Positions 1,552 to 12,186 of a DNA stretch of 64,000 bases are shown piece after piece (positions within the stretch are counted from its first letter, which is position 1; each line of letters begins with the position of its first letter). Source of the DNA: Sabellastarte sp. h YS-2021. Taxonomy: Eukaryota; Annelida; Polychaeta; Sabellida; Sabellidae. Where the stretch lies: contig OZ024940.1 of assembly GCA_964017235.1 (NCBI GenBank), positions 26,727,615 to 26,791,614 of the forward strand, written 5' to 3'. Position numbers and translations under genes: made by a program. The notes beneath the pieces are model-generated. The model was not told the DNA's origin. It saw only the letters and a list, made by a program, of their open reading frames with translations, and did no database searches.

Positions 1552-3134
1552 ATGGCTGGCACGATCCCAAAGGTGATTGACGACAGCTTGCTGAAATGCA
1601 AGTTATGCATCAATCCATTCAACGAGCCAAAGATTCTGCCCTGTCTGCACGTCTTCTGCAAAGGTTGCCTGACGAAATACATGGGCACGCTACCAAGGGA
1701 GAAACACAAGAGTGCCGCCCTGGATCCAAAGGTTCTAGAGGAGGCCCTGAGTGCCAACAACTTCAGTCTGGACCAGGAGATCCCTATCCATGGTTACGAT
1801 GATGTGGTCGGCCATTACCCCTCACTGCCCAAAATGCCGAAGTCCAACAGAACAAGCTTGAACAGGCAGAGTCAGAAGAAGGTTGAAGGAGAGTATAGTG
1901 AGGTGGCTTCTCCAGAGGATGATACAACTGGATTGACACCAGGTGATCAGGCAGGTGATGAAGGGAGGAATCTCAGTCTTGGCGTGTACACACTAGAAAA
2001 GGCCCTGCCAGCCAATGGGATGCCGTATCTTCCCATGACCAAGCCAAATTCTTCGGAGAGGAGCAAGTCAGACCCCATAGATGAAAGGAAGGTACAAGAG
2101 CATCTCCACGGTCAAAGTCAGAGTGCAAGGTCATCCAGGGTGGAGCCAGGCAGTCAGGGCAAACTTTCGGCAGGTCCTGGTCTGGTCAGAACCAATACCT
2201 ATCTGCCCATGGATAGGGGGTCACCAAAAAGTTCTCAGAAAGACCTGAACCATGTGGGTGAGCCAGGGATGGTGGATACTATGAACAAAGGCTACGAAGT
2301 GATGGTAAGTGGCCGAAATGTTAATGGGAATAAGAAGCATAAGCCAGACAATGATGCTATGTTGACGGGAAGAGCGGGAGAATCGAGTGTTCCAGTGGAC
2401 AAGCCATTGAGTCTCATCACCCCTACCTCTCCCGATAGCTATGATGTTTCGGCAGCCAAGAATCAATCCATGCAGCTGACAGGCTTTGGCTTGGCTAGCC
2501 CTGTAAATATGTCTTTGTTCAAGACCAGCAGGCCAGCTGTAAACAACCCCGAGTCCATCTACCAAATGGAGAGGACGGGCATCACCACGACTACGTCCAA
2601 TGCGGAGGAGACTGGAGACCGAACGAACACTGTACTCTCGAAACGTACCAGTCAATCTGTGGATATGCTTAGTACAGCTACGGTATTGGGTGATAAGAAA
2701 ATATCCAAGCAGTCGAGTGAAGGTGACCTGAAAGGCCTTCAGCTGAGCATAATGACTCATTCCCTCTCTACCGGTGACATGGCTGTTGAAGCGGAACACC
2801 AGACAGCCTCTTCAACTTCAGACCAGACCTTGTCTCCAAAAGTGGAGGACCCCAGTGCTAATCCAGGAGAAAAACTGACCTACTCTCCAACAAGTGGTCA
2901 CGATGGTTATGAGACGCCCCTGACCCAGAGAAACCCCAGTAACGAGTTGTCACCTTCGTCTACAGTCGGTTCCCCGCCCATGCTCCACAAACTTCCACCT
3001 AAGCAGGCTTTTGTCAGTGACGAGGTGATACCGGCACTTCCACCAAAGCAGGGGCCATCCAGCAGCAAACGGCTGAGTTGTGATACCGTCAGTCTACAGG
3101 CAATTGAGATGGGACCAGCTCCACCAGTGCCGAG
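1552..3134 (+). CDS. Coding exon 1: RING first half plus long disordered insert
   Basis: Encodes residues 1-527 and two bases of codon 528. Zinc ligands Cys16, Cys19, Cys31, His33, Cys36 and Cys39 sit in CKLCINPFNEP and LPCLHVFCKGC, the first six ligands of a C3HC4 RING. The expected final CPxC does not follow; about 490 Ser/Pro/Lys-rich residues do. ATG 1552 is preferred because it has G at -3 and G at +4 and puts the RING near the N terminus. An in-frame ATG at 1498 has a weak context, and a TAA stop lies at 1483-1485. The insert holds two YLPM motifs (Tyr159, Tyr217), YSEV (Tyr115), YDVS (Tyr297), YETP (Tyr453), and proline motifs LPPKQ (twice) and APPVPR. The donor is CGAG|GTATGG in phase 2. 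Confidence 0.9.
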
Positions 3135-6100
3135 GTATGGGCAGATTTTTGGTAATGGAAATGTAGGCTGTAAATGTGATTTTCTTTTCAAAACTTTGTG
3201 ATAAATTTGCACCGGGAAAATCTTTAGGGGGTTATGAGTTATGACTTAATATTTTGGGTACATTTGTAGCAACCTCCAGCTTTAGACTATGGAGGTATAA
3301 TGATAAGTAAACTGGGGTATGAAAGACATTTCTCTTCCTTTTGAACTATATCTTAATTCTCAAATTGTGACCTTTACTTTACAGAATGAAGCAAAACTCT
3401 GACAAAACTGCCGGCATTCGAAGGCGTCTGGCCGTTGGGGAGACCCTGAGCCCCACAAAGTCCGATCCAGACTCTAATCCCGACAACTGGAGAGACTCCG
3501 TCTTTGTGGACCACATCTACGAGGAGATCCAGTACAACGCGTCGCAGAGAACCCTCCGACGATCCAAAGAAGGTGGCGTCAGTAAAAACCATGCAAACGT
3601 GCCCATGATGCGCCCCCTGAAGTCGGGAAAAGTCAAAACCTCATCCACCAGCTCGGCATCTCGCTCCAAAGGAAGTACGAAAAAGCCCGCCGCCGCGGCA
3701 CCAACAGAGGAATTTAATCCTCGTCTTCACAAGGCTAAAAATGTGCTGAAGAAAAGCAAGCAATACCAGCCACCCAGACACGCCAGTGGTGACAGCGAGG
3801 CAGCAAGAATCGGCGGTTTACAGGTAGAGATTCCAATACAGTTTCAATACCGATATATCATACCCTCTAAGGAGTAAAAGGTACTTGTGGAGTGCAAACC
3901 TCTGTCTAGGGCTTGTTAATTTCACCTTATAAACTGCTTTTCTAAATTTTAACCCTCATGTTGGGATAGCACCATTAACCATGATGAAAATCATTGAAAT
4001 TGGGGCTGTTGAAAATTCGAGACCGTTGTGTATCCAGAGTATGATTCGGATCTTTCCCAAAATATGATTATTTCTGCCTTTTGGTCATGCCCTACCCACA
4101 AACAAAAGATGTGTCCAAACAACTATGCTCCTTTGTGGAGGTAAAAAATATAGTCTTCTTTATTTGGTCAATTTATATTACCGGTAACTTGAAACTGAAA
4201 TACACTGTCAAATCGAGATATCAAACGCTTTCCCTAATCAATGTTTTACTGAAGCTTAGAATTGTGTTCTTTCAGGTAAATAGCCAATCAGTTAGGAGGT
4301 ATTCCACACAGATATCACCACTTTGACCTTTGTTACTGCTATGTGACCTGTTTCATATTTACAGGTGGGCAGTAAATTAATGAGAAAGTCCTCGGTCCTG
4401 CTTGATGAAAGTGGCTTTCCTTACATCTCCGACCATTTCGAGAAGGTCTCCATTAACCACAACAATGAGGACATAGAATTGATTTACTCCGAGGTCAGTG
4501 ACCTTGCATCTTCAACCAACCAACTGCCGCGACCGCCAGTGAGTACAATCCCCACCAACGGTGACACAAGCAAAATAACCCACAATAGCAGCAGCAATGC
4601 CAACCTCAGGGAAATGGCCTGTCCAACCTGCCAGTCGCTCTTCCAGTTACCAAACGGAGACGTCAACAATCTGCCATCCTGCACGTTCATCGAGAATCTC
4701 AAAGGCGTGAGAGACTTGGAAAATACGCTACGGCCGTCCTGTAAGAACTGCAAGCAGAAGTCTGCCGAGTTCAAATGCCTTGAGTGCGACCACTACCTGT
4801 GCCGGCGCTGCAACGACAGCCACAAGTGGTTCAAGGTCGTCCAAGGTCACCATGTCATGACCTTGACGGAGCTGCAGAGCGGCAAGTACACCAGCCAGAT
4901 CATGGGCAAAAAACGGGAGGTGTGCCCAAACCATTGCAACGAACCGCCTCAGTTCTACTGCGACACCTGCAACCATGCGGTCTGCAAGGAATGCGCCCAC
5001 TGTTACCACCGGGGGCACCCCTGCCTGCCCATGGGCGAGGTGTCCCAGAGGGGCGTGGGGCTCCTGACGGACTTCCAGTCGATGACCAGGCACATCTCAC
5101 AGCAGTACCGGGAGGAGAACCTGCAGCTGGACAAGTACCGGATGCAGTACAACCACGACAAGAAGAGGTTAGCCAGCCAGGTCATAGGTCAATATGTCCA
5201 CGCCACCAAGATGCTGGAGGAGTCCTACCAGGAGCTGTTACGCCATATCGAACACAGGTATGTAGAGTCAAGGTTGGTTTGTATATCCAAGGTACATTTG
5301 TTTGTTCCCACAAAGATTCTTGTAACTGTACATGTACTTGTCTTCACGAATTGCAGTCATCAATGGACTTTTAAGAGACTGTGCACAAAGTTTATTTGAG
5401 AAATGAACTGACCACTTTACAGGTGTGGGCAGTAACTAATGTATAAACTGTCCACTTTACAGACATTCTGAGTAGTTAATGTATTATCTAACCACTTTAC
5501 AGGTATGATGAAGAGTTAATGTATTACCCATATTCAAGTGTGATGAAGAGTCCATGTATTAACTGACCACTTTACAGGTGTGATGAAGAGTTAATGTATT
5601 AACCACTTTACAGGTGTGATGAAGAACTAATGTATTGACTACTTTTCAGGTGTGATGAAGAGTTAACGCATTAGCTGACTACTTTACAGGTGTAATGAAG
5701 AGTTAATGTATTAACTGTCCACTTTACAGGTACGGTGAGGAGGTGATGTACATCGATGAAATCCAGAAGAGAAACAAACAGTTCCTGACACGGGTAGAAC
5801 AGACTAACCGACTAGCGGACCATGTGTCCGAGTATGGCAATGACTGTGATGTCATCAACATGACCAAATTACTGATGCAGAACCTTCTCGACATGGAGAA
5901 CTACCAGCCAATCAAACTGGAGAACAAAATGGAGATACATTTCACGCCTCTGTTGTCGGTGAGACCCATAGATGTCTTGCCCCTGATTGGCCAAGCCTCA
6001 CGAGAGTATAAGCCAATCAAAAAGGTAGAGGGTCTGGATGTTCTTTCTGCTGGTGAAAACGACTGGAGCACTTCAAACGAGCCAATCAAACACCTCCACA

Positions 6101-9100
6101 CATTCACACCCAAGACAGAATCGGACAAGAAGGGCTGCAAACCAACAGGCATAGCACTGACCAGAGACGACAACATTGTGCTGGTCGATGACATCAACAG
6201 GAAGATCAAGATCTTTACGGAAGAAGGTCAACTGGTGCACGAGATTGTGCCGACCAATCGGGAGGAGCTGGTGGACCCCTGGGACGTCACCGTGACCAAT
6301 TACGGCAACTTTGCAGTGACTGACAGAGGTTCTAAAAGGGTGAGAGTTACCTAGATGTTAGTTAGCTCATCAACTGTAGCAATTTAGCTATTACAGACAG
6401 GCAAATTTTAAAAAAGTAACACTGAATACACAACTAGATTGGGCCAACTCGGCGCCAACATATCCCCAGACAGGTCATCACTCACGCCACAGGTTTTGAT
6501 CGGGAATTTTTTAAAACATAATTACCCATTATTATATGAACTTCAGCACATCAATCTACTCTGTTTATATCTTCCCAAGGAAGATGGTGTATCCCCAGAC
6601 GCCGAATACATAACTCAAATTATATTTTCAATCTTCCTGCAATGATAACTCTAAACCTATTTTCAAAGTATTTAAATGATTGATGATTGAATGTCCATTC
6701 TAAAATAATAATCCCAAAAGAGCATATCTGTTTCTGTATTTGTTGACAAGATATTATTTTTAACTCAACTCATCATACTTTTCAATCTTCCTTCAAAGTA
6801 TTTAAATGATTGATGATTCAATGTCCATTCTAAAATTCATAATCCCAAAAGCGCATATCTGTTTCTATATTTGTTCACAAATAAAATATTATTTTAAAAA
6901 AAATTATTTATATTATTATTTTATTATATTATTTTTAGAATTTGCAAATTGTTTTCAGTTATTCATTTCCTCTATACCTATATATGTGGTCCATATATAT
7001 GCAACCTAAATATGTGACACAATCTCAGTTCTGACTCCCCTTTGTGTTATATGTAATGAAGCCCACCACCTCCCACCCCCACCCCTCTCCCTTCTCCACA
7101 CCTCTCTCACTATTACACAAGATCTGCAACCCCATTGAGTTCTTTGTTTCTCATCTGATATCATTAAATACCTTTGTTTATTTAGTGTCACTCAATATAG
7201 CTGGAGGTCCCAGAGGGACTGGGCTAGTTGAGGGTTAAAAATCCCCTAGTTTTACTACATAAGGATATAATTTTATTAATATTGGGACTTAAAGCTCACT
7301 TAATCTGTCCATTTTGTCTACTTGAATATGTTTAACCAGTTTCATTTTAAAAAGTTAAAAACTCAGCAAGCAGAGGTATAACACACAAAAATAAGTTCTT
7401 AAAAGACTAAGATAGCCATAACATTATTAATATTCAAAATTTAAATAGACAGGCATTTCCTTTTAAAAATTCAAAGATTTCAGCTCTATAACCCACATAG
7501 TTTGACAGTTACTGGGCTTTAAAGTGGCATAATGTCCATAAATTGGGTTTCTGTGGGCATTTTACAATTGTTAAAGAGACCTTAGCAATTAAACTACAGA
7601 TCTGAAACTTTTTGGGGGACATACATAACAAAAAAATTTTTTTGTAATACAGTTTAAGACTTGTCACACTAAGCATTTCCAAATAACAGGGCAAAATACG
7701 GAAAAAATGTCAAAAAAGGCACTTGGGCGAGTGTCTATGGCCCTCATACACAGGTTAAATGTCTACTAAAAACCTTGATTTTCGGCATATGTAAAAAGGA
7801 CATAATAATGCATTCCTAGATGGGATTTCAGCTCCATCAATGACATAGTTTAACAGTCACAGGGCTTAAAGGTGGTAAAAAGTCCAAATATTGGGTCTCT
7901 GTGGGCCTTTTAGAGATCTCGATGTGCCTTTCAAATTAAAGCTTCAGACTTAAAATTTGTTACATACTAAGATTACACATAGAATATGTATCTAATAAAG
8001 TTTGAAACTTCTCAGACTTACCATTTCCAAGTTACAGAGCAAAATATGTGAAAAATGTCTTAAAAGGGTCACTCAGGTGGGTGTTTAAGGTCCTCATACA
8101 CAGGTTAAATGTCTACTTGAAGCCTTGATTTTTGGCACATGTAAAAAGAACATAATAATGTATTCCCAGATGAGATTTCAGCTCCATCAGTCACATAGTT
8201 TAACAGTCACAGGCCTTAAAATTGGCAAAAAGTCCAAATACTGGGTCTTTATGGGGCCTTCTAGAGACCTAAATGTGGCCTTCAAATTAAAGCTTCAGAC
8301 TTAAAATTTGTGACATACTAAGATTACACATAGAATATGCATCTAATACAGTTTGAAACTTCTTAGACTTACCATTTCCAAGTTACAGGGCAAAATATGT
8401 GAAAAATGTCTAAAAATGGTCACTCGGGTGGGGATTTATGGTCCTCATACACAGGTTAAATGTCTTCTTAAAGCCTTAATTTTTGGCACATATAAAAATA
8501 ACATACTAATATCTTCCCAGATAGGATTTGAGCTCTATCAGTCACATAGTTTGACAGTCACAGGGCTTAAAAGTAGCAAAAAGTCCAAATATTGGGTCTT
8601 TGGGAGCCTTTTAGAGACCTCAATTTGACCTTCAAAATTAAAGCTTCAGACTTAAAATCTGTTACATACTAAGATTACACACAGAATATATATCTAATAC
8701 AGTTTGAAACTTCTCAGACTTACCATTTCCAAGTTACAGGGAAACAGACGTGAAAAATGTCTTATAAGGGTCACTCGGGTGGGTGTTTATGGTCCTGATA
8801 CACAGGTTAACTGTCTATTAAAGGCCTAAATGTTGGGGCACATATAAGAAAACACATAGATATATTCCCAGATGATATTTAACTTAGATGAGAGACATAG
8901 TTTGAAAGCTACAGTGCTTGAAAGTGGCAAAAAGTGCATAAATTGGGTCTCTGTGGGCACTTTTGAGACCTTAAGTCGACCCCTTTGGGTAAACCTACAG
9001 CCCTAAAATTTTCTACAGACAAGGATTACATATCAAAGTTATACCTAGCGCAGTTTGAGACTCATCAGAATTACCACTTCCAAATTATAGGGCAAAATAT

Positions 9101-12100
9101 GTGAAAAGTATAGCAAAAAATCCCTAAGTGGGGGTATTTATGGGCCTCAAACACAATTTTCTCCTCAACTTAAAGTCGTGATTTTCGGCACATGTACTAA
9201 GAACATATTAATGTGTTGTCAGGTAAAATTTCAGCCAGCTGAGCATCATAGTTTGTGACCTACAGGGCTTTAAGTGGCCAAAAGTCCAATTTCTGACCTT
9301 AAGGTGGCCATAAGTTCTTTTTTACTGGGACTTTAAGGTCACCTTAAAATAGGGATCTTCCTTTGGGCACCCTTAACATGTGTACCAAGTTTGAAAAAAA
9401 AAAATTTGTTTTTGAGTTATCGCGTCCACAAGGAAATTTCTACAGCGGCGGCGGCGGCGCGACGGACCTGAATCCAATATATCCCCGACTTTCGTCTGGG
9501 GATATAATTAATATGCTGGCTGTGTGAGAGTTTCACATACAGATGTAGGTGTATTAGAATTACTATGTTTCTGACATTCCATGTTATCAAATTTTGACAC
9601 TATAAGATTCAAGGGTTTGTTTTCACAGAAGAGTTCAAGGTCAAAGGTCAGCAAATAATCAACTCAAGCATAAAGTTTTTTCTGTATTTTTTACAAATAC
9701 AATCCCAGTATTATGTGCTTGTAGTTTTTGGCTATTGAAGTTGCATCTAAAATTCAATTTAAGTTTTCTTGTCTCTCAGGAAAATGAGTAAAATATTACT
9801 AGAACTTTGCAATCACAATTGACTACTGTGGGGATGTCACATTTATACTTTGTTGCATCTTCAGGTGAAGATCTTTGACCCAGATGGAGACCTAGTCTGT
9901 GAGTTTGGCCCTCATCTTGCCAACCCCTGGGGCATCTGCTGTAACCGGAATGGCGACCTCATCGTCACCGACACCGACCACCGCTGTGTGTTTGTTCACG
10001 ACTCCAACGGCAACCTCAAGTTCAAGGTCACGGCCCCGGCTAAGCTCGCCAAGTTCCCAGAATATGTGACCACAAATTCCATGGGCGACATCATTGTGTC
10101 TGACCTCAAAGCACACTGCGTCTATGTTTTTAACCTGCTGGGCCAGTTCCTCTTCAAGGTCGGCCCCAAGGACATCAAAAACCCAAAGGTCAAGGTCTTT
10201 CACAGTCCCTGTGGCATCTATACGGATGCTGAGGATAATATCTTGGTCGCCGACTACGAAATGGTCCGTGTCTCCAAGTTTAACCGCAATGGCAGATTCC
10301 TGTCGCATTATCTCACATACATGGACTCACTACAAGCACCACAGAGTCTAGTTGTGAACAGGAAAGGCCATGTGGTACTGTCGGATGGGAATTTTGTGAA
10401 GACATTTGCCATGGACGAAGCTGAGTTGGTGAATCTGGAGCTCAAGCCAAAAGTTTATAATTTGAAGAAGGCGAACGCCAGTGGTTATCGGAAAGAGGCT
10501 CTTCAGAGACCAGGGTCACAGTCACCAGAAGTACCTGTGAAAGCAGTGCATGGGTCGGTGGATGTGAAGACTGACAAGGAAGACTACGGGAGTGAGGAAC
10601 ATGCCAAAGAGTCACGGACTGCTGACAGTCATCCAGTGGCGAGGCCTGTGAAGTCTGATCCAGGTCAGTGGCAGGGTATTAAGTACTGAAGTAACACAGG
10701 AGGTCTTAAGTGGCCTAGTGGTTAGCTGGCTGGCACCTCTGTGTGGGTTTGAGGGTATCTCAATTTTCAAATGTAGACTACCAGCCTATGAGGTCTCTTT
10801 TTTGAAGTCATCGGAAAAGTTTGTGAAGCATATTTCAAATGTGAGTTCTTACGAACTGCACAGAACTGTCTGAACATTTCTTCTTTTATTTAATAGTTCA
10901 TTTCATAAATCAATACTTTTCTTTTTCTTCATATATATAGTAACTTATTCCAACCATAACTTTTTAAAATTTACTAATACACCTATTTCACAAAATAAAG
11001 ATATATTTTGTCAAGTTCAATTTCAAATTTCTACAGACTGTTTTAATTATTTTTTTATTTTATTCCTTACTTTAATTTTACTTTCATACTTTTGACAGTC
11101 GCTGAGCCCTTCTCCCGATCCAGACCCTCCAGATCGTCCAGCACTTCTCGTTACCATGACAACTCGGACAAGAACACCTTGCCCAACTATGGCACACCCG
11201 CCATGCTGTTACGCGCCATACAGGACTACGATTCTCCCCGAGTGTCCGTCAAGAAGATCAAAGAGAGGCTGACAAGCATCGACCGCTCAAACAGTGGCCG
11301 GGACAGGCGCGACGAGAACGGGAATGGACGCGGAACTCCAAACCCCGTCATAAGGAACATCGAGACCTCTAAAGTGTCCATAGACAAAGTGAAGGAACAA
11401 CTGCTTTCAAAAGACAGTGGTAACCATGGTGGCGGTGTCATGGGACCAAAACCTAAGTTACAGCCAAAGCCAAGCTTTAAGCAGATTTCTGAACACATGA
11501 TGGGCATGGAAAGTAACAAGAAGATGGTGAATGAGGGACCATGCAAAGCTGATGATGGTAGGACCAGGCCAGATGGAAAGGTTGACACTGATGCTGATGA
11601 TGTGGCAGGCACTGATATGAAAAATCATCAACATCGGCTGAAACAGGATCAAACACAAGTTTCAGGGTCAACGGTCAGTGATATCAAGGACACAGCTCAT
11701 GAGTCAAAGGTCAAGGATATGAATGATCATCACCACAGGATAAGCCAACAGGATCTACTGCCAGTTGAAGGGTCAAAGGTCAAGGACACAAAGGACATGG
11801 GTCATGACCTGAAAGCAAAGGATAATAACACTGGTTCAAAGGTGAAGGACGTTGAGTCAAAGGTCAAAGATCCTGATACAAGGGAGAATGGTGTAGATCC
11901 AGAGGTCCAGGTTGTGGTCAGTAAGGTTTCAAGTGAAGACGCCACTGGTGGTCTAAATCTTGCTCAAAAGGACAAAGAAGCGAGTTCTGTGATTAAGTCA
12001 AAAGAAACGGACAAGAAATCGGGTTCAGCCAATACCAAAATGTCCCCGTTAAAGGTCGGGGAGAAGAAGAAACAGTTAAAAGTGTCTCCCAGTATTAGCC

Positions 12101-12186
12101 GGAAAGATGGAAAGTCTAAAAAGTCACCGAAACTCTTCCGAACCAGCAGGAAACCGACCAATAAGGGGAATTCATCTGAATGTTAG
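1552..12186 (+). CDS. TRIM-NHL protein with split RING (gene model, six coding exons)
   Basis: Joining 1552-3134, 3385-3823, 4365-5257, 5730-6339, 9865-10663 and 11099-12186 gives 5412 nt with no internal stop (1803 residues plus TAG). Every junction is GT-AG and phase-matched. Domain order: RING first half (Cys16 to Cys39), about 720-residue insert, RING last pair (Cys760, Cys763), B-box 1 (Cys800 to His836), B-box 2 (Cys861 to His892), coiled coil (about 898-1045), linker without a recognisable filamin domain, six NHL repeats (about 1108-1368), 435-residue tail. In the family, the RING gives E3 ubiquitin ligase activity, the coiled coil dimerises, and NHL propellers bind RNA or protein. Two B-boxes without filamin resemble the Brat/Mei-P26 layout more than TRIM2/3 or TRIM71. 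Known relatives usually end at the propeller and have a compact RING. Orthology is not resolved, so no symbol is given. Ligase activity is inferred and depends on the split RING folding. Confidence 0.9.
3385..3823 (+). CDS. Coding exon 2: middle of the RING insert
   Basis: Encodes residues 528-674. The acceptor TTTACTTTACAG ends at 3384. The first base completes an Arg codon split with exon 1, and the exon ends in phase 0 at TTACAG|GTAGAG. No folded domain is visible; the sequence is basic and rich in Ser, Pro, Ala and Lys. IYEEIQYNAS (Tyr573, Tyr578) contains YEEI, the classical Src-family SH2 ligand when phosphorylated. The exon carries only part of the insert between the two RING halves. 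Skipping it would shift the frame (phase 2 to phase 0), so it is needed unless an earlier donor in exon 1 is used. Confidence 0.85.
4365..5257 (+). CDS. Coding exon 3: RING last Cys pair, B-box 1, B-box 2, coiled-coil start
   Basis: Encodes residues 675-971 plus two bases. The acceptor is CATATTTACAG|GTG, so the first codon is Val. After about 85 disordered residues (with IYSEV at Tyr715) comes ACPTCQSLFQLPNGDV then LPSCTFIENL, the usual end of a TRIM RING. B-box 1 fits C-x2-C-x8-C-x2-C-x4-C-x2-C-x3-H-x8-H (Cys800 to His836). B-box 2 fits C-x2-H-x8-C-x2-C-x4-C-x2-C-x4-H-x2-H (Cys861 to His892). All ligands are present. The helical stretch from about residue 898 (DFQSMTRHISQQYREENLQL and on) starts the coiled coil. 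The donor is AACACAG|GTATGT, phase 2. Confidence 0.93.
5411..5729 (+). repeat. 36-40 bp tandem array of 3' splice-site-like units in intron 3
   Basis: Eight units precede the true exon-4 acceptor. AG dinucleotides end near 5422, 5462, 5502, 5537 (degenerate), 5577, 5613, 5649 and 5689; the authentic one ends at 5729. A typical unit has TATTAACTGACC (branch-point-like), CACTTTACAG (acceptor-like), then GTGTGATGAAGAGTTAATG, which resembles the first bases of exon 4 (GTACGGTGAGGAGGTGATG). Confidence 0.85.
5730..6339 (+). CDS. Coding exon 4: coiled-coil end, linker, NHL blade 1 and half of blade 2
   Basis: Encodes residues 972-1175. The acceptor CCACTTTACAG ends at 5729 and is the last of a row of nine near-identical acceptor-like units. 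The exon opens with YGEEVMYIDEIQKRNKQF, continuing the coiled coil. A linker of about 70 residues around PIDVLPLIGQASREYKPI has no clear filamin fold. NHL repeat 1 is KPTGIALTRDDNIVLVDDIN; repeat 2 starts at DPWDVTVTNYGNFAVTDRGS and is cut by the phase-0 donor AAAAGG|GTGAGA. Confidence 0.93.
6460..9505. mobile_element. Tandem-cored non-autonomous element in intron 4
   Basis: ATATCCCCAGAC at 6460-6471 is the reverse complement of GTCTGGGGATAT at 9494-9505. A second possible left end, TATCCCCAGACG, lies near 6590. The right end carries a (CGG)n stretch (9445-9458) and a hairpin around TTTCG. The interior is AT-rich with a 130-bp direct repeat (6661 and 6791) and then a 350-bp tandem array. This plan resembles the bivalve 'pearl' and Helentron-associated elements, but no transposase or target-site duplication is visible. 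Confidence 0.55.
7430..9370 (+). repeat. ~350-bp tandem repeat, about six diverging copies
   Basis: The motif CATAGTTT(A/G)ACAGTCAC recurs near 7497, 7845, 8195, 8546, 8897 and 9248, spaced 348-351 bases. Each unit also has AAAAAGTCCAAATA, TTCAGACTTAAAAT and TTACCATTTCCAAGTTACA. Copies 2-4 are closest; the outer copies are more diverged. No long reading frame spans the units. Confidence 0.85.
9865..10663 (+). CDS. Coding exon 5: NHL blades 2-6 and start of the C-terminal tail
   Basis: Encodes residues 1176-1441 plus one base. The acceptor is TTGCATCTTCAG|GTG, phase 0. Val-Lys-Ile-Phe completes blade 2; blades 3-6 begin at NPWGICCNRNGDLIVTD, FPEYVTTNSMGDIIVSD, SPCGIYTDAEDNILVAD and APQSLVVNRKGHVVLSD. 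The spacing of about 40 residues gives the six blades of a Brat/TRIM71-type propeller. After about residue 1368 the sequence becomes charged and low-complexity. The phase-1 donor is GATCCAG|GTCAGT. The frame reads through the donor to a stop at 10689, so intron retention would give a protein with the full propeller but no tail. Confidence 0.93.
10705..10765 (+). repeat. tRNA-like SINE head fragment in intron 5
   Basis: GTGGCCTAGTGGTTAGCTGG resembles a tRNA A box and GTGTGGGTTTGAGGG a decayed B box; it matches the head of the SINEs near 23220 and 31265. The rest of intron 5 is AT-rich and featureless. Confidence 0.45.
11099..12186 (+). CDS. Coding exon 6: long charged C-terminal tail
   Basis: Encodes residues 1442-1803 and the TAG stop. 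The acceptor ACTTTTGACAG ends at 11098 and a split Val codon restores phase 1. The tail is Lys/Asp/Ser-rich with no known fold. Two related helical segments, VSVKKIKERLTSID (Val1490) and VSIDKVKEQLLSKD (Val1534), lie 44 residues apart. Four copies of SKVKD lie between about 11704 and 11874. The last 40 residues are strongly basic (KKSPKLFRTSRKPTNKG). Exon assignment rests on frame continuity, the splice sites and codon-like composition; there is no homology support for the tail itself. Confidence 0.85.

Follow-up and report, generated by a model that had tools for sequence, protein, structure and literature searches.

Introduction

The closest described counterparts of the protein discussed here are class VII TRIM proteins, in particular TRIM2 and TRIM3. 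According to one report (PMC9732051), the activity of TRIM2 is abolished by mutation of either R64, the linchpin residue located after the CPxC motif, or F81; the TRIM2 dimer interface is formed by V12, I16, F20, F82, and L86 with V89, and the E2 is contacted by I25, Y50, P61, and V62. The same report describes TRIM71 as a class VII protein with two B-boxes and a large Ser/Gly-rich RING insertion, whose RING displays no apparent activity in discharge assays (PMC9732051). Among Drosophila proteins, Mei-P26 is modeled as a well-folded RING-BBox-CC block that follows an unstructured stretch (residues 1-161), and Brat is described as having no RING (PMC9070667). In nematodes, the absence of the E2-contact proline has been used to argue that LIN-41 is not a direct ligase (PMC4148191).

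RINGs are regarded as compact, and a profile search sees the RING described below as a truncated one. A conserved RING with 340-750 residues between its zinc ligands illustrates the extent to which this fold tolerates opening, and proteins with such a split RING may be missed or misannotated. It also provides a natural experiment on whether structural or docking roles preserve a RING after the loss of its catalytic residues. No such RING was found among the matches listed in full-text searches covering TRIM-NHL proteins, pseudo-ligases, and RINGs that are split or carry an insertion; this negative result carries little weight, since most subscription journals lie outside the search. One paper (PMC12992792) was rejected as a precedent, its subject being nuclear ring structures.

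Gene Structure and Domain Composition

The window, i.e., the whole 64-kb stretch of annelid (Sabellastarte sp.) DNA that was analyzed, carries a gene at positions 1552-12186 of its forward (+) strand, to which the exons and domains below also belong. Modeled from splice sites and open frames, the gene consists of six exons and encodes 1,803 residues with no internal stop, in the domain order RING/B-box/B-box/coiled-coil/NHL. Exon 1 (1552..3134; residues 1-527) contains the start codon, the N-terminal half of the RING (N-half), and the first 488 residues of a long insert. Exon 2 (3385..3823) encodes insert only, and a related protein, P0001, reads through the positions of both junctions of this exon in a single frame. 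The end of the insert, the C-terminal half of the RING (C-half), both B-boxes, and the start of the coiled coil are located in exon 3 (4365..5257), while exon 4 (5730..6339) encodes the remaining coiled coil, predicted as a long helix in the model of another relative, P0002, and the start of the NHL propeller. Exon 5 (9865..10663) completes the propeller and begins the C-terminal tail, and exon 6 (11099..12186) contains the rest of the tail and the stop codon. The start codon at 1552 is supported by an in-frame stop upstream, at 1483, and by P0001, which starts with the same residues (MAGTIPKVIDD in both proteins).

Pfam profiles match the N-half as an incomplete RING (positions 1-30 of 40), along with B-box and NHL domains. 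B-box 1 (4740..4853; residues 800-837) reaches 20.5 bits with PF22586, under that profile's cut-off of 27. For PF00643, two stretches are reported, with a protein score of 25.9 bits (cut-off 24.1), and the place given, which is that of the best stretch only, corresponds to B-box 2 (4914..5033; residues 858-897). The class VII order of RING, B-box, coiled coil, and NHL is thus present in one protein according to Pfam and, for the helix, the P0002 model. No filamin family occurs among the 11 Pfam matches at E values up to 1; therefore, the filamin domain that precedes NHL in TRIM2/3-type proteins appears to be missing. The best sequence relatives in the PDB are the NHL domains of TRIM3 and TRIM2.

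From intron 3 into exon 4 (5406-5731), there is a 36-40-base tandem repeat of 8.5 copies, each unit of which carries a copy of the exon-4 acceptor and of the bases that begin the exon. The real acceptor, whose end is at 5729, is preceded by six TTTACAG decoys, four of which read R-C/Y-D/N-EELMY, resembling the real RYGEEVMY, before running into a stop. The arrangement suggests that a 3' splice site was duplicated several times along with the start of its exon. Intron 4 (3.5 kb) holds a 351-base tandem repeat of 4.7 copies (7475-9107). Between 13000 and 64000, just three stop-to-stop frames reach at least 130 residues, and no other gene of the 64-kb window was recognized among the frames of that region.

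A RING Divided by 720 Residues

The RING of the window protein is split. Its first six C3HC4 ligands, C16, C19, C31, H33, C36, and C39, form the N-half (1597..1668), and ligands seven and eight, C760 and C763, are encoded in exon 3, ahead of the B-boxes and 720 residues further on. C760-P-T-C763 is the sole in-frame CPxC and opens the C-half (4620..4733; residues 760-797), which continues with an LPxxxFIxNL stretch. The insert between ligands six and seven spans 1669..4619, introns 3135-3384 and 3824-4364 included. The gene model thereby bears out a first-pass annotation of this DNA, which had assigned the first six ligands to residues 16-39, placed the CPxC (Cys760/Cys763) before B-box 1 with an LPxxxFIxxL trailer, and described a RING split by about 720 residues over three exons. 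An out-of-frame CPKC at nucleotide 1826 was rejected as an alternative second half because it lies in the wrong frame and is followed by an early stop.

When joined, the two halves match the human TRIM2 RING from end to end (E 1e-10). Compared with the TRIM2 C-half, the C-half yields a shuffle p of at most 0.001 in six of the seven split members described below and of 0.012 in P0009. All eight zinc ligands occur in C3HC4 order, though discontinuously, in the window protein and in five relatives; P0009 has the last two only. The contiguous, compact RING expected of TRIM class VII is absent: the loop that measures 720 residues here is 11-44 residues long in 11 compact TRIM-like proteins from the database, a set from which P0026 (which has no RING) and L005 are excluded. 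In L005, a TRIM-NHL frame with a compact RING in the same 1.79-Gb genome, the loop has 13 residues and the linchpin is lysine.

Relatives with the Same Split

Residues 750-1365 of the window protein, used as a query, returned five protein matches, two of which are relatives: P0001 (1,747 aa; 64% identity over 97% of the query) and P0002 (1,074 aa; 32% identity over 99%). The remaining three cover 39% of the query and comprise NHL and other propeller domains. With P0002 as the query, 62 proteins were listed, P0002 included, only candidates sharing most words having been scored; among these matches, P0006, P0007, P0008, and P0009 are close, the others are diverse TRIM-like or propeller proteins, and P0001 does not appear. 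A third search, with an alignment of exon 1 (A2), matched only P0067, which is 100% identical and represents the frame of the window itself, together with P0068, a TRIM33-like protein of Branchiostoma with a compact RING.

P0001, P0002, P0006, P0007, and P0008 have all eight ligands, the first cysteine being residue 16 in each, with loops of 746, 342, 361, 355, and 348 residues, respectively. In P0009, the N-half is missing and the C-half follows after 443 residues. The frames of the five relatives with both halves fill most of their contigs (1747 aa in 5930 nt, 1074 in 4300, 1084 in 4571, 1081 in 3675, and 1098 in 4539), whereas the introns of the window gene total 5,223 bases; hence, these five sequences are probably spliced transcripts. 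Since both halves lie in one frame on single short contigs, the split is not an artefact of the gene model. The same relatives dispose of two possibilities considered in the first-pass annotation, namely separate genes and a missed exon supplying a nearby CPxC, as they read through the insert between both halves.

Core identity between the two split clades is approx. 32%. A tree built from the region that follows the CPxC separates the seven split rows from the compact ones by a branch with support 100/99, which was found in 100% of 200 bootstrap trees; the ten compact rows were those at hand, chosen from the matches together with L005 (P0015, P0026, and P0068 were left out), two of them have long end branches, and P0009 has an odd composition. 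Judged by sequence comparison, the split characterizes a TRIM-NHL subfamily, in which it is conserved. A lone Cys-Pro-Thr that follows the N-half of P0008 (residues 52-54) was considered as a remnant of a compact RING; it has no second cysteine, does not recur in the other members, and was left as chance. P0002, P0006, P0007, P0008, and P0009 share a C-terminal ETEVW, a possible conserved terminal motif that occurs in neither the window protein nor P0001.

Catalytic and E2-Contact Residues

At the places of the TRIM2 dimer interface, the window protein retains I5, I9, L13, F782, L786, and V789, and at E2-contact places it has L18, Y43, and P761. The place of R64 is occupied by Q764 and that of F81 by T781, the latter located relative to the conserved Phe of the F82 place, as the preceding stretch differs in length. 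The TRIM2-type basic linchpin and Phe81 equivalent, which are marks of an active E3 ligase, are thus lacking in the window protein. Across the seven split members, the linchpin residues are Q, S, E, E, E, K, and D, the single basic one belonging to P0008, and the Phe81 place is Ser or Thr in every case. Compact rows have an Arg or Lys linchpin in nine of 11 (nominal Fisher p 0.013 against the split members, the rows not being independent). Conserved positions include the E2-contact proline (7/7), the α1 hydrophobic residues (6/6 of the members with an N-terminus), and the Phe of the C-half helix (7/7). Elsewhere, the place of the E2-contact Ile (I25) is Ala in P0007, that of Tyr50 is His in P0002, P0006, and P0007, that of L86 is Met in P0006-P0009, and that of V89 is Thr in P0001.

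From these residues, the RING is expected to fold but to transfer ubiquitin weakly or not at all; ligase activity of the split RING is doubtful, and P0008, with its lysine linchpin, may be an exception. The first-pass annotation had suggested that the ligase might be inactive or conditional if the halves failed to pair. Loss of activity indeed seems plausible, but the probable cause differs: the linchpin and Phe81 equivalents have been replaced, which would have consequences for a correctly folded RING as well.

The Insert and Its Tyrosines

Between the window protein and P0001, the insert is 40% identical over aligned residues and is conserved in islands, while the C-terminal tail is 33% identical. 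Late in the loop, at the exon 2 end and exon 3 start, residues 671-720 are strongly conserved (12-16 identities per 20 residues) and include GFxYISDxFEKV and HNNEDIELIYSEV; they are possibly a binding site. In ten comparisons of the insert of the window protein or P0001 with that of P0002, P0006, P0007, P0008, or P0009, no alignment exceeds chance (lowest p 0.07), although the insert of P0009 aligns with those of P0002, P0006, and P0008 (p 0.003-0.013). A common origin of the two clades' inserts is therefore unsupported by local alignment; they share a place and perhaps a style, with no recognizable sequence in common.

No residue type of the insert is better conserved than tyrosine (10 of 16, compared with 253 of 710 residues overall; p 0.025, uncorrected). 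YxxM occurs three times in the inserts of the window protein (0.46 expected) and P0001 (0.31 expected). YxN is absent from the window insert and present once in P0001 (1.0 expected), while there are three copies each in P0002, P0006, and P0007 (approx. 0.5 expected in each), three in P0008 (0.6 expected), and two in P0009 (0.6 expected). SH2 and SH3 domains have characteristic motif classes. For a combined tyrosine class (Y-x-x-V/I/L/M/P or Y-x-N), in tests chosen after the sequences had been seen and left uncorrected, the counts are 10 in the window insert (5.0 expected, p 0.007), 11 in P0001 (5.8, p 0.011), eight in P0002 (3.3, p 0.005), and seven in P0007 (3.5, p 0.036), and they are not significant in the inserts of P0006, P0008, and P0009 (p 0.089, 0.065, and 0.15). 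The excess is absent from the C-terminal tails, which are weak controls because five of the seven contain three tyrosines or fewer; the window tail has a slight excess of YxxP (2 against 0.36 expected, p 0.048). Overall, the counts suggest a modest excess of tyrosine motifs in the insert. Our guess is that the insert serves as a phosphotyrosine docking arm; as the motif tests are post hoc and uncorrected, IRS/Gab-like docking, for which motif counts and conservation provide the basis, is adopted as a working hypothesis only.

Probable Pairing of the Halves and Possible Function

According to the cross-brace rule, which we take to apply here, zinc site 1 consists of C16, C19, C36, and C39, all in the N-half, and site 2 of C31, H33, C760, and C763, so that only site 2 needs the C-half. 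A polymer estimate gives effective concentrations of approx. 64 uM for a 720-residue loop and approx. 220 uM for 340 residues, which would be enough for a modest affinity between the halves. AlphaFold2 predictions were made for P0002. With only the six split rows, the RING halves have block means of about 29-50. In an 18-row run, to which twelve unsplit rows were added, the block means of the N-half (residues 11-50) rise to 72-81, and its predicted secondary structure resembles that of a RING (strands 26-28 and 34-36, helix 37-50). Strands 378-381 and 388-391 are predicted in the C-half; the CPxC block (381-390) averages 78, its flanking blocks 55 and 53, and the helix that follows 48. As compact RINGs are present in the alignment, this run is partly circular and indicates that pairing is compatible with the sequence, not that it occurs. 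The Foldseek and VIA matches listed are NHL and other propellers and concern the NHL part. The first-pass annotation left pairing open and pointed to structure prediction, whose outcome is mixed: the six-row run gives pairing no support, whereas the 18-row run and the retention of the site-2 ligands of both halves in all five relatives that show both favor it. On this ligand conservation and one of two models, it is likely that the halves refold into one RING. The large disordered loop envisaged earlier agrees with the values, mostly below 50, of residues 53-373 in the 18-row model; its projection from a RING would depend on pairing.

Our preferred reading, to which we assign a probability of roughly 60%, is a TRIM-NHL subfamily whose RING has been opened by a probably mostly disordered loop and which may dock an E2 and transfer ubiquitin poorly, the loop acting as a docking arm. 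The N-half alone would hold zinc site 1 and the C-half would close site 2, the mostly disordered insert looping out of an otherwise normal RING between ligands six and seven. Such a RING may still dimerize and dock an E2, yet without the linchpin Arg and the Phe81 equivalent it would be a poor activator of E2~ubiquitin. The TRIM scaffold would carry the loop with its SH2- and SH3-type motifs as a docking arm, and its NHL propeller would bind the target. A bolder version, in which a conserved animal family has turned its RING into a split, dimerizing, E2-docking pseudo-ligase with a phosphotyrosine arm of 340-750 residues emerging from site 2, and possibly with inter-chain completion, is less likely than not. 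If it holds, a RING completed between the chains of a TRIM dimer could make assembly itself a switch.

Should the halves stay unpaired, the N-half would be a lone zinc knuckle (site 1), the C-half a leftover ahead of B-box 1, and the RING vestigial. This would suit the low confidence of both halves in the six-row model, the replaced linchpin and Phe81, and the report that nematode LIN-41 functions with a mutated RING (PMC4148191). We nevertheless regard it as unlikely: site-2 ligands have been kept in both clades despite their low core identity, the helix Phe of the C-half is invariant, and the 18-row model is fair for the N-half and CPxC. A conditional ligase, in which the halves join within a chain or swap across the coiled-coil dimer and phosphorylation or cleavage of the loop gates activity, would make sense of a long loop with tyrosine motifs, of the E2-contact proline in all seven members, and of the dependence of site 2 alone on the distal half. 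It is nonetheless improbable, given that a basic linchpin is found in one member only and Phe81 in none, and that changes of this type abolish the activity of TRIM2.

Two further explanations would do away with the long loop. Splicing from within exons 1 and 3 could remove most of the insert and generate a compact isoform: the frame-compatible GT at 1842 or 1893, combined with the AG ending at 4609, would shorten the loop to 61 or 78 residues, and longer loops would result from the GT at 1732 in combination with phase-0 AGs up to 4493. These GTs stand in weak context (judged by eye, unscored), the insert is conserved as protein, and all five relatives with both halves carry it; we consider such an isoform very improbable. 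As for two neighboring genes or a wrong gene model, the join within the window rests solely on predicted splice sites, but the single-frame, short-contig relatives largely refute this explanation, and it is scarcely credible.

Comparison with Known TRIM-NHL Proteins

The window protein resembles TRIM2 and TRIM3 in the match of its joined RING halves to the TRIM2 RING, in its NHL domain, to which theirs are the closest by sequence in the PDB, and in the order of B-box, coiled coil, and NHL. It differs from them in the 720-residue split, two B-boxes, the lack of a filamin match, and the replacement of R64 and F81. With TRIM71/LIN-41, it shares class VII membership, two B-boxes, and a large RING insertion. 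The TRIM71 insert, however, is tens of residues long, lies between earlier ligands, and is Ser/Gly-rich; moreover, the NHL match is weaker than that to TRIM2/3, and the window protein has no filamin match. The Drosophila TRIM-NHL proteins Mei-P26, Brat, and Thin are similar in their NHL propeller, but Mei-P26 is modeled with one folded RING block in place of a split RING. In the tree, the nearest compact row to the split group is the Lingula anatina TRIM3-like protein P0012, a placement that is unsure because of its long end branch; unlike the split members, it has a 15-residue loop and an Arg linchpin.
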